The translations under genes were made by a program, and so were the position numbers. The notes below the pieces were generated by a model that saw only the letters and a list, made by a program, of their open reading frames with translations, did not search any database and was not told the origin of the DNA. From Zetaproteobacteria bacterium (GTDB taxonomy: Bacteria; Pseudomonadota; Zetaproteobacteria; Mariprofundales; Mariprofundaceae), in the NCBI GenBank assembly GCA_003233235.1, contig QILF01000052.1, positions 1 through 40,579 on the forward strand: a DNA stretch of 40,579 nucleotides. The letters run 5' to 3'. Positions 6,966 to 40,579 of this stretch are shown here, piece after piece (the first letter of the stretch is position 1; each line of letters starts with the position of its first letter).

Positions 6966-7427
6966 ATGCGCCTTCCTTCTCCGATTCTCGTCGTCTGTCA
7001 GGGTAATTTGTGCCGTAGTCCGTTCGCCGAACTTTTGTTGCAGAAAAAGTTGCAGGATGCCGGTGTATATGCCGAACTGTTCAGTCGCGGTTTGCAGAAT
7101 ATTGGCAGCCAGCCGGTACCGGACGTTGCATTATCCGTTGCGCTCGAATTCGACATCGATCTTTCAATCCATCGCTCCACCATGCTTCTCAAACAGGACT
7201 TGCAACACGCAGCATTCGTGCTGGTGATGAGCGCCCGCCAACGGAAGTTTATCGGCGAGATCAGTCCGATGAGTATCGGTAAAGTCTTTCTGCTATCGCA
7301 ACCCGATGGCGGCGATACGGTTGCCGACCCTATCGGTCAATCAGCCGATGTCTTTCGCGAGGTCTACACGGAAATCGCTGAACATATTGATGCATGGTTA
7401 CAGCGCTTTGGCATTGTTCAAGCCTGA
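6966..7427 (+). CDS. Low-molecular-weight protein tyrosine phosphatase family
   Basis: CX5R motif CQGNLCRS and DPIG loop. Confidence 0.9.
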   Translation: MRLPSPILVVCQGNLCRSPFAELLLQKKLQDAGVYAELFSRGLQNIGSQPVPDVALSVALEFDIDLSIHRSTMLLKQDLQHAAFVLVMSARQRKFIGEISPMSIGKVFLLSQPDGGDTVADPIGQSADVFREVYTEIAEHIDAWLQRFGIVQA

Positions 7428-7528
7428 ATACCGGCCCGCAGATAGTGCAAAGCGACAATGGATTAGCGGCTACGTTCCAGCACTTGCAGTGCGCTTACAT
7501 CTTCCTAGCATGCACCTTCACAATCCAT

Positions 7529-7602
7529 GCGGGTGTAGCACAATGGTAGTGCAGCAGCTTCCCAAGCTGAATACGAGGGTTCGATTCCCTTCACCCGCTC
7601 CA
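7529..7602 (+). tRNA. tRNA-Gly(CCC), CCA encoded
   Basis: 74 nt cloverleaf: acceptor GCGGGTG/CACCCGC, D stem GCAC/GTGC, anticodon loop TTCCCAA, T arm GAGGG-TTCGATT-CCCTT, terminal CCA. Confidence 0.95.
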
Positions 7603-7631
7603 TGTTTTGATACAGGTAGCCACAAACACAT

Positions 7632-8405
7632 ATGAGCCAATTTATTCGTTTTTCATTTCCCCTAAGTCCACGCATGCAGAGTTTTCTGCAATTGCGCGAT
7701 GGTCTTGCCTGTTTGGCCGAAGCCAATGCCGACCAGCAGCCTTATGTCTGGTTACAAGCCTGTGCCGATTTGCACATTTCGTTATTCGGCGAGCAGGGGC
7801 GTCGGGCAGCACTATCCGATGTTATCGGTCTGCTTGGTTGTATGCAGGATCATCTGGATGCGCTGGCCAGCGAGCACCCACAATACTGCGAACAGATTAT
7901 GCGCTCCTGCGCCACGCTTGAAGGACACGAAAAAAATCTGCGTGGCGGTGTGGATGAAGCAAAAAACATCCTCACCTCTGATGCGCTGATTTCCGCCTGG
8001 ATGAACGGCCTGAAAAAACACGACTGGCTAGGACACCGGAAGCATATGCCACATGCCCTGCATACGTTATGGCATAACAGCCAACGACGCGAAGCTGTGC
8101 ATAATGCATTGCGCAATTTGAGTGAAGCGGTGAGTAGTATGCATGGCATGCTGCACGATTATGTGGCATGGGAATCGCATCTCGCGGAGGGCGGCGGTCA
8201 GCGTTTCCGGCTTGATTCCAGCAAACCATGCGGTTTGCTCATTGTCGGCCTGACACCTGCTCAAGTTGACGCTGGACTGATCCCCGACATTTCCGGCAAT
8301 CACATGGCTGTCCGCTTGCGTTTTCAGCGCTGGCTGCCTACTCAGGCTTCTGTTCAGGTCGATGAGGATGTGCCGTATCAGTGCATGCAAGTGCCTATCG
8401 CATGA
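7632..8405 (+). CDS. zapD: Cell division protein ZapD (YacF/DUF1342)
   Basis: N-terminal FSFPLSPRMQSFLQLRDG and C-terminal RLRFQRW resemble ZapD; directly upstream of yacG, as in the conserved zapD-yacG pair. Confidence 0.8.
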   Translation: MSQFIRFSFPLSPRMQSFLQLRDGLACLAEANADQQPYVWLQACADLHISLFGEQGRRAALSDVIGLLGCMQDHLDALASEHPQYCEQIMRSCATLEGHEKNLRGGVDEAKNILTSDALISAWMNGLKKHDWLGHRKHMPHALHTLWHNSQRREAVHNALRNLSEAVSSMHGMLHDYVAWESHLAEGGGQRFRLDSSKPCGLLIVGLTPAQVDAGLIPDISGNHMAVRLRFQRWLPTQASVQVDEDVPYQCMQVPIA

Positions 8406-8596
8406 AAGCTAAAATAACTGAAAAGAATACTCGCGCCTGCCCCGTTTGCCGCAAACCTGTCGTTCCGGATACCCCGGAAGCGCCTTTTTGCAGCAAACGC
8501 TGCCGACAAATCGACCTTGGTCGCTGGGCGAGTGGCGATTATCAAATTGAGGGTGAGTCGGCGATGCCCTGGGAATTGGAACGCGGTGAAGATTGA
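8402..8596 (+). CDS. yacG: DNA gyrase inhibitor YacG, zinc-binding
   Basis: CPVCRKPV...FCSKRCRQIDLGRWASGDYQI; ATG at 8402 overlaps the zapD stop. Confidence 0.92.
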   Translation: MKAKITEKNTRACPVCRKPVVPDTPEAPFCSKRCRQIDLGRWASGDYQIEGESAMPWELERGED

Positions 8597-9191
8597 GTCT
8601 GTAACCCATGAATATAAAAGAGATAAATTAGATATTATTCTAGCCTCAAGCTCCACCTATCGGAAACAGCTTTTAGCGCGCCTACAGCTCCCTTTTTCAG
8701 TTTGTATACCTGATTTCAAGGAAGCCAGAACGGGCAGTATGCCACCGGCAGAACTGGTTCAGCACAACACGCTGGGGAAAGCACATGCTGTTCGTGTCGT
8801 GTATCCGCAAGCGACCATTATCGCCTCCGATCAAATTGTCGTTTGTGACGGAACCGTGCTCGGCAAGCCGGGCAATTACGCCGCTGCCAGTGAGCAATTG
8901 GCGTTTCTTTCTGGAAAATCCGTGGATTTTCTAACCGGCGTTGCGTTGCTTGGAAAAGCTATCGAACGCTACGAAACCGTACGCTTTCGTGTCTATTTCC
9001 GGCATCTGAATGCCGCCGAAATTGATACTTACCTGCTTGCGGATCAGCCTTATGATTGTGCCGGAAGTTTCAAATCGGAAGCGCTGGGTATCAGCCTGTT
9101 TTCGCGCATGCAGGGCGACGACCCGAGCGCATTGATCGGCCTGCCACTGATTACCCTGTCCGGCTGGTTGCAACCGCTAGGGAGGCGCTGA
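8586..9191 (+). CDS. Maf-family nucleotide pyrophosphatase (YceF-like)
   Basis: IILASSSTYRKQLL, ASDQIVV, LGKPG, YDCAGSFKSEALGI; GTG start at 8586 inferred; stop codon lies in the adjacent MITE-like inverted repeat. Confidence 0.9.
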   Translation: MKIESVTHEYKRDKLDIILASSSTYRKQLLARLQLPFSVCIPDFKEARTGSMPPAELVQHNTLGKAHAVRVVYPQATIIASDQIVVCDGTVLGKPGNYAAASEQLAFLSGKSVDFLTGVALLGKAIERYETVRFRVYFRHLNAAEIDTYLLADQPYDCAGSFKSEALGISLFSRMQGDDPSALIGLPLITLSGWLQPLGRR

Positions 9192-15509: not shown

Positions 15510-15510
15510 A

Positions 15511-15573
15511 GAGCCACTTGCAAAAGTCGTGAGCGGCAATCGGCGTCCCCACTCAGACTTTTGCAAGTAGCTC
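15511..15573. mobile_element. 63-bp palindromic (mini-MITE-like) element with TAAA flanks; may also act as a bidirectional terminator
   Basis: GAGCCACTTGCAAAAGTC (15511-15528) versus GACTTTTGCAAGTAGCTC (15556-15573), 17/18 complementary; TAAA at 15507-15510 and 15574-15577. Confidence 0.55.
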
Positions 15574-15588
15574 TAAAGCTTTTGTTTT

Positions 15589-38958: not shown

Positions 38959-40308
38959 ATGCATATTGCCATGCTTTCCCCTGTTGCTTGGCGTACTCCT
39001 CCGCGCCATTATGGTCCATGGGAGCGTGTTGTTTCCCTGCTCACGGAAGGACTTGTTGCCAGAGGCGTTGAAGTTACCCTCTTTGCCACGGGAGACTCCA
39101 TCACTGGGGGGCATCTCCATGCTGTCTGTAAAAAAGGCTATGAAGAGGGGGCGAAAGAAGACCCGAAAGTAATGGAAGCACTGCATATCTCTGAACTATT
39201 TGACAGAGCTAGTAATTTTGATGTCATCCATAACCATTTCGATTTTCTCCCGCTGACCTATAGTGGACTGGTTAATACGCCCATTGTCACCACGATTCAT
39301 GGCTTCTCTTCTCCCCATATCCTGCCCGTCTATGAAAAATACAATGACAGAGCCTTTTATGTTGCCATCAGCGAGGCCGATAAGGCTGTCAGTCTTGATT
39401 ATATCAGTACCATTCATCACGGTATCAATCTGAATGAATTTACCTTCAATGCCGAACCACAAGGCGATTACCTGCTTTTCTTCGGACGCATTCATCCCGA
39501 CAAAGGTGCGAAAGAGGCGATAGAGATCGCTCGGCGTACCGAGAGTAGGCTTATCATGGCCGGCATTATTCAGGATAAAGACTATTACGAGCGCGAAGTT
39601 GCGCCTCACCTTCACGATGGTATTACCTATCTCGGCAGCGTTGGCCCGGATAAAAGGGATAAGCTGTTAAATGAGGCTAGGGCATTGCTACACCCCATCA
39701 GTTTTGATGAACCTTTTGGTCTTTCTGTGATCGAAGCAATGGCTTGCGGTACGCCAGTCATTGCCTTTAATCGAGGAAGCATGCCCGAATTGATACGCAA
39801 TGGTATCAATGGATACCTCGTATCCACGGTAGAAGAGGCTGCGGATGCCATGGGTCGGCTCGGCGAGATCAACAGAGGCGATTGTCGGGAATGGATAGAA
39901 ACCCACTTTTCCGTTGAACGGATGGTTGATGATTACATCAAGGTCTACGAAGAGATTATTGAAAAAACAAAGCGCGAGGATCATAGACCTTGGGGTTATT
40001 ACGAGATTTTCGCTGATGCTTCTGATCACAAAGTAAAGCGCATCGTGGTCTATCCTGGAAAGCGACTTAGTTTGCAGCGGCACCAGAGACGTTCCGAACA
40101 CTGGCACGTCATTTACGGTGAAGGGATAGCCACCCTAAATGACAGTAAGCTTGTCCTTAAAGCGGGGGACTCAATGGATATTCCCCAAGGTGCTATTCAC
40201 AGAATGGAGAATCAGGGTAAGGAGAATATGGCCTTCATAGAGGTGTCGCGTGGCGACTATTTCGGTGAAGATGATATTGAGCGGCTGGAGGATGATTTTG
40301 GACGCTGA
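38959..40308 (+). CDS. GT4 glycosyltransferase fused to a C-terminal mannose-6-phosphate-isomerase-type cupin
   Basis: N-term HIAMLSPVAWRTPPRHYGPWERVV...EPFGLSVIEAMACGTPVIAFNRGSMPELI; C-term HRPWGYYEIF...KRIVVYPGKRLSLQRHQRRSEHWHVIYGEG...IPQGAIHRMEN...GEDDIERLED. Confidence 0.9.
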   Translation: MHIAMLSPVAWRTPPRHYGPWERVVSLLTEGLVARGVEVTLFATGDSITGGHLHAVCKKGYEEGAKEDPKVMEALHISELFDRASNFDVIHNHFDFLPLTYSGLVNTPIVTTIHGFSSPHILPVYEKYNDRAFYVAISEADKAVSLDYISTIHHGINLNEFTFNAEPQGDYLLFFGRIHPDKGAKEAIEIARRTESRLIMAGIIQDKDYYEREVAPHLHDGITYLGSVGPDKRDKLLNEARALLHPISFDEPFGLSVIEAMACGTPVIAFNRGSMPELIRNGINGYLVSTVEEAADAMGRLGEINRGDCREWIETHFSVERMVDDYIKVYEEIIEKTKREDHRPWGYYEIFADASDHKVKRIVVYPGKRLSLQRHQRRSEHWHVIYGEGIATLNDSKLVLKAGDSMDIPQGAIHRMENQGKENMAFIEVSRGDYFGEDDIERLEDDFGR

Positions 40309-40322
40309 TGATTTTGGACGCT
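40291..40322. repeat. 16-bp perfect tandem duplication spanning the GT-cupin stop codon
   Basis: GATGATTTTGGACGCT x2 at 40291-40306 and 40307-40322; the TGA is formed across the junction. Confidence 0.95.
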
Positions 40323-40351
40323 GCCATTAACATGAAACAAACAACGCGGTT

Positions 40352-40411
40352 GCATGGATTTTTTCCATCCTGTGGTAATGTTTTATCCCACGGGAGGGAA
40401 AAAATCCATGC
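40352..40411 (+). promoter_or_regulatory. Long hairpin enclosing the SD and ATG of the GH130 gene
   Basis: GCATGGATTTTTTCC / GGAAAAAATCCATGC perfect 15-bp arms plus inner TCCTGTGG/CCACGGGA; 12-nt loop TAATGTTTTATC. Confidence 0.85.
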
Positions 40412-40579
40412 GCGTTAAGCGACACGAACAGAACCCGATACTGACGAAGCATGACATACCTTACCCCGTGGAAACAGTACACAATGCTGGTGTCGTGAAG
40501 CATGAGGGAAGATACATCATGCTTTTCAGGTCGCACCTGAGAAACGGAAGATCAATTATTGGCAAGGCGGAGAGTGACG
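40408..40579 (+). CDS. GH130 family glycosidase/mannoside phosphorylase (N-terminal part; truncated by window end)
   Basis: Not in ORF track; MRVKRHEQNPILTKHDIPYPVETVHNAGVVKHEGRYIMLFRSHLRNGRSIIGKAESD matches the GH130 N-terminal pattern. Confidence 0.82.
   Translation, partial: MRVKRHEQNPILTKHDIPYPVETVHNAGVVKHEGRYIMLFRSHLRNGRSIIGKAESD

Follow-up and report, generated by a model that had tools for sequence, protein, structure and literature searches.

The window (the whole stretch of DNA analysed, 40,579 nt) carries near its right end, both on the + strand, a gene for a group 1 glycosyltransferase (GT) with a C-terminal MannoseP_isomer/cupin domain (38959-40308) and the 5' part of a GH130 gene (40408-40579). 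The contig stops at 40579, inside GH130, and contig C93 of this genome, overlapping by 91 bp, carries the continuation of the gene. A hairpin detected by both RNA folding and inverted-repeat search, on the same strand, spans the junction of the two sugar-enzyme genes, its 5' arm at 40352-40375, its apical loop region of 12 nt at 40376-40387 and its 3' arm at 40388-40411. The arms are 24 nt each and 92% complementary; no longer inverted repeat is present in the window when arm distances of up to 60 are scanned. Another strong inverted repeat, with 19-nt arms of 95% complementarity placed 27 nt apart, is located at 15510-15574. The RNA fold of 40330-40430 reached -41.4 kcal/mol (z-score, -6.79), and none of 200 shuffled sequences folded equally well. 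The fold adds an outer stem of 5 bp, in which AACGC at 40343-40347 pairs with 40412-40416. As stated in the preliminary description of this DNA, both a Shine-Dalgarno sequence (GGGAGGG, 40392-40398) and a start codon (ATG, 40408-40410) are located inside the 3' arm. The predicted GH130 proteins start with MRVKRHEQNPIL in the window and with MRVKRYEHNPIL, MTSVITRYEKNPVL and MIHRYAKNPIL in the genomes referred to here as G062, G074 and G044, respectively. Since the homologues align from about the ATG at 40408-40410, this codon is very likely the real start of GH130.

The region 40300-40579 was used as the query for a search of 74 genomes of the family Mariprofundaceae, marine bacteria that oxidise iron. 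A stretch of about 92 bp, corresponding to 40327-40418 of the window, was found at many places, mostly with 75-90% identity. The aligned copies share TTAACATGAAACAAACAACGCG on the left and CATGCGCGTTA followed by A or G on the right, with a stem-loop between them, while the flanking sequences are unrelated. The hairpin of the preliminary description is real, but the 60-bp unit that it proposed is part of a larger one, 92 bp in length as judged from the aligned copies. In the window, the + strand carries an entire copy (TTAAC...GTTAA), with the conserved left end at 40327-40348 and the right end, GCGTTAA, at 40412-40418, within which the 3' side of the outer stem spans 40412-40416. Among 97 copies, each of the two bases preceding AAC is T in about 90%, and 97% have A or G directly after GTTA. 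The terminal inverted repeats consist only of TTAAC/GTTAA, 5 bp in length (4 bp in copies ending with GTTAG), the large inverted repeat being internal. The element is shorter than 200 bp, non-coding and dispersed in many copies between unrelated flanks, as are small mobile palindromic repeats, and it contains the long stem-loop of bacterial MITEs and related palindromes.

A covariance model of the element gave matches in 20 of the 74 family genomes and in none of the four genomes of the order outside this family. The matches numbered about 55 in G066, 52 in G060, 32 in G067, 28 each in G062 and G068, 24 in G007, 18 in G013 and 14 in G056; these are not exact copy numbers because a copy was in some cases matched on both strands and because the scoring had an upper limit for each genome. 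When the left end was used as an exact query, 43 stretches were retrieved, every one of which belongs to Mariprofundus, Mariprofundaceae or Zetaproteobacteria MAGs, and no exact match to it was found in viral contigs. Within the collections scanned, the repeat is therefore confined to Mariprofundaceae/Zetaproteobacteria. The window's genome contains a single copy, the one at the GT/GH130 junction.

The conservation of the structure was assessed with an ungapped alignment of 14 copies and with the covariance model. These replaced a raw alignment of 49 copies, on which RNAalifold returned a meaningless structure of four pairs because gaps were misplaced. Among 102 model matches, both partners had changed in 21 of the 29 pairs, and the covariation score exceeded those of all 500 shuffles and of all slid controls, in an alignment that is model-fitted and includes opposite-strand rows. 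When only one strand was taken for each place (81 distinct copies), 8 of the 29 pairs occurred as Watson-Crick types in which both bases differ, with at least three copies for each type; there were 134 G.T pairs against 86 A.C mismatches. The ungapped 14-copy set agrees with these compensatory stem changes. The + strand of the copies folds better than the opposite strand, by 2.5 kcal/mol on average. Because the compensatory changes occur in copies located beside many different genes, folding is maintained family-wide and not for GH130 in particular. The left ATGAAACA can pair exactly with the loop TGTTTCAT in the consensus; as a fixed feature of the family, this pairing was rejected since the hairpin apex is inverted in several copies. 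Such copies, with a ATGAAACA-like loop instead of TGTTTCAT, are located at positions 323-410 of locus L099, 3209-3300 of L148 and 1423-1514 of L175.

The genomic setting was examined for 62 unique copies read together with their flanks. The copies are mostly intergenic and occur in both orientations relative to genes; the neighbouring genes are co-directional in 37 cases, divergent in 10 and convergent in 6. This distribution bears on the possibility that the hairpin terminates GT transcription as an intrinsic terminator, as the strong stem shortly 3' of the GT stop codon might suggest. A terminator is nevertheless extremely improbable: the 3' arm is not followed by a T run on the + strand, no terminator was called there, and the copies are commonest between co-directional genes, with so few between convergent ones. 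For many copies, simple ORF gene calls place the end of the adjoining gene 4 nt into the element, through the TAA of TTAAC. At the lptE/holA junction, the filled and unfilled sites fit an insertion into the TA of a TAA or TAG stop codon, but their flanks have diverged. At ribD/comEC, the element is present in one orientation in three genomes and reversed in G060, at a slightly different point, while G068 retains only a remnant from which the hairpin is deleted. The opposite orientations at nearly the same ribD/comEC junction (L148 and L084) suggest independent insertions at a favoured spot.

The ends TAAC...GTTA and a stem-loop of similar length also recall an integron attC site, and integron integrases scored above the cut-off in 27 of the 74 family genomes, including two in the window's genome. 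An attC site has the ends RYYYAAC/GTTRRRY and is repeated in the same orientation in arrays near intI. In the intI contigs examined, however, neither a copy of the element nor an attC-like array was found; the copies are single and face both ways, their right flank departs from GTTRRRY, and G067, a high-copy genome, has no integrase above the cut-off. That the element is a stray attC site is accordingly very improbable. The two integrases of the window's genome above the curated cut-off are encoded at G000:C37:1485-2426 and G000:C33:12952-13896.

Comparison of transposases across the family genomes did not reveal the mobilising enzyme of the repeat. An IS630-type transposase, hinted at by the TA near both ends, is not supported, as DDE_3 is absent from most of the high-copy genomes, and Y1/RAYT transposases were uninformative, being widespread regardless of the repeat copy number. 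Only one such gene was noticed near a full copy of the repeat, a Y1-type transposase gene about 1.1 kb away, in the region of about 7136-8712 of locus L143 (G060:C246). With terminal repeats this short, no target duplication shown and no enzyme found, we do not file the element as a MITE of any named transposase family.

The GT/GH130 junction was compared with that of relatives. In G062, the genes are arranged as in the window, with about 86% DNA identity; its spacer retains both ends of the element, while about 60 bp of the hairpin is lost. The GT gene of G062 stops at the TAA of the element (40328-40330 in window coordinates), and its GH130 starts at the element's ATG. In the window, comparison with G062 reveals a 16-bp tandem duplication on the + strand (40291-40306 and 40307-40322, together 40291-40322), which creates the GT stop codon TGA at 40306-40308, earlier than the stop in G062. 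G074, belonging to another family of the order, carries GT, GH130 and the following gene without the element, and the leader of its GH130, GTTAGGAGGAAAACTATG, is an ordinary Shine-Dalgarno sequence (AGGAGG) followed by ATG. The element is also absent in G044. Since G062 keeps only the ends while G074 and G044 have no element, the GH130 start codon of the window and the first codons (ATG CGC GTT AA., encoding MRV and part of K), all of which lie in the element, most likely came from it. The G074 leader has in addition lost about 24 bp relative to the filled loci, and insertion alone thus does not explain the junction.

The preliminary description had left two readings side by side, an undescribed cis-regulatory RNA of GH130 and the insertion of a palindromic element, from which the start codon was recruited. 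The dispersed copies and the states found in G062 and G074 support the latter. An RNA dedicated to GH130 (a thermometer, a ligand switch or an sRNA target) would mask the start site until opened, and it would fit the enclosure of both Shine-Dalgarno sequence and ATG in a stem predicted to be costly to open. Against this reading, the stem is missing under an unchanged gene order (ends only in G062, nothing in G074), the same stem adjoins many unrelated genes as a dispersed repeat, and an Rfam scan of the window returned only a tRNA and nothing for the element. The first two of these observations are outcomes that the preliminary description itself had named as refuting. The predicted cost of opening the start region is 26.3 kcal/mol in the window, whereas 4.7 and 6.6 kcal/mol are predicted for G062 and G074, respectively. 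For the window, 19.8 kcal/mol is still needed at 60 C, which makes a temperature switch unlikely; an RNA thermometer was therefore rejected, and with it the earlier proposal of a stem opened by heat. We consider a dedicated RNA of any of these kinds very unlikely, and an evolved sensor for GH130 unlikely as a description of the hairpin. These folding predictions do favour the earlier claim that the hairpin would hinder initiation, and on this basis GH130 is probably translated less efficiently, except where the stem has been cleaved or the transcript begins within it.

A start inside the stem would be provided by an outward promoter in the element. Transcripts starting in the loop would carry the right arm only, leaving Shine-Dalgarno sequence and ATG free, and the hairpin would never form on the productive mRNA. 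In line with this idea, the family consensus before the loop, TGTGATAAT, resembles an extended -10 sequence, putative promoters have been reported in Correia repeats (PMC2229807), and a transcript beginning at about 40376-40387 has a predicted opening cost of only 11-12 kcal/mol. The window copy, however, reads TGTGGTAAT, lacking A at position 2; the motif varies among copies, and a simple scan found no promoter in the window copy. A promoter as the main explanation is thus improbable.

The right arm also differs from its relatives in sequence. The family consensus is GGGGTGG, and among 48 copies checked GGAGG is present only in that of the window, where one of the changes from GGGGTGG produces a mismatch in the stem. 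This looks as if the arm had been adapted locally to serve as a start site, in a single case. In the three other genomes of the window's genus that were searched, neither a full-length match to the GT gene nor GH130 was found, and so the locus may have been acquired by transfer, with the element in it.

In the explanation that we regard as highly probable, the hairpin is a copy of a non-autonomous MITE/REP-like repeat of about 92 bp, which gave a stop codon to GT and a start codon to GH130 and whose Shine-Dalgarno sequence was adapted later. The repeat family, its ends, its presence or absence in relatives and the compensatory changes in its stem come directly from comparison of sequences. The ancestral locus would have received a copy at the GT-cupin/GH130 junction, presumably by insertion, its left end serving as the stop codon of GT, while GH130 would have taken its start codon and its first three to four codons from the right end. 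The window lineage may then have gained a good Shine-Dalgarno sequence in the right arm by changes from GGGGTGG to GGGAGGG; the G062 lineage would have lost the core of the hairpin instead. Read-through transcripts would be expected to translate GH130 poorly, and expression of GH130 would depend on cleavage of the duplex, for instance by RNase III, or on a transcript starting in the element.

A broader proposal is that the repeat acts as a mobile stop/start cassette, the ends restoring the stop codon of the neighbour and the right end bringing an ATG with a Shine-Dalgarno-like arm, so that insertions would repeatedly re-wire gene starts, silenced by the hairpin until it is cut or until transcription begins internally. 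GH130 and possibly comEC in G060 would be instances; the latter (L084) starts with MRVKLNLAGSG and has no other early ATG. We hold this generalisation to be doubtful. Use of the element's ATG as a gene start was rejected as a general rule, since most such ATGs give short frames, and for the long frames starting from it in L073 and L058 a native start downstream is likelier.

Several known repeats resemble the element. The Correia/NEMIS repeats of Neisseria are MITEs of about 105-155 bp, on whose stems RNase III action has been proposed (PMC2229807). They share with the element a short, dispersed, palindromic organisation, a long RNA stem, TA near both ends and the fusion of some copies to coding sequence. 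In contrast, the sequence is unrelated as far as examined, and the Mariprofundaceae element has terminal inverted repeats of only about 5 bp outside the stem, with neither a transposase nor a target duplication demonstrated for it. ERIC/IRU/RU-1 and YPAL/RU-2 of enterobacteria (PMC2229807, PMC2759123) are likewise intergenic palindromes, of 100-170 bp, some of which overlap or extend neighbouring reading frames. They belong to another lineage and size class, while the Mariprofundaceae element gives a start codon within the stem. REP sequences associated with RAYT transposases are 20-40 bp long with a GTAG or CGTC tag, and GTAG REPs often give flanking genes a TAG stop (PMC3733652). The element is similarly a palindrome near stop codons; by that definition it is not a REP sequence, being 92 bp long with the ends TTAAC/GTTAR and no GTAG/CGTC tag. 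As described in PMC12306157, the translation control by REPs of Liang et al. 2015 concerns a palindrome within about 15 nt of the upstream stop codon. The element shares this position, but the effect described there is on the upstream gene, whereas what is peculiar about the window element concerns the start site on its downstream side.

A limited literature search brought up no report of palindromic repeats forming a family in Zetaproteobacteria or Mariprofundus. The element is of a familiar kind; the family is new, and its outcome at this locus is unusual. As the case shows, dispersed copies should be looked for before a start-masking hairpin known from one genome is named a regulatory RNA. 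What looked like a riboswitch candidate has become a clear example of a translation start supplied by a small palindromic repeat, at a locus available in three states, without the element (G074), with the hairpin kept (the window) and with the hairpin deleted (G062), and it brings to the Zetaproteobacteria a repeat that reaches tens of copies in some genomes.
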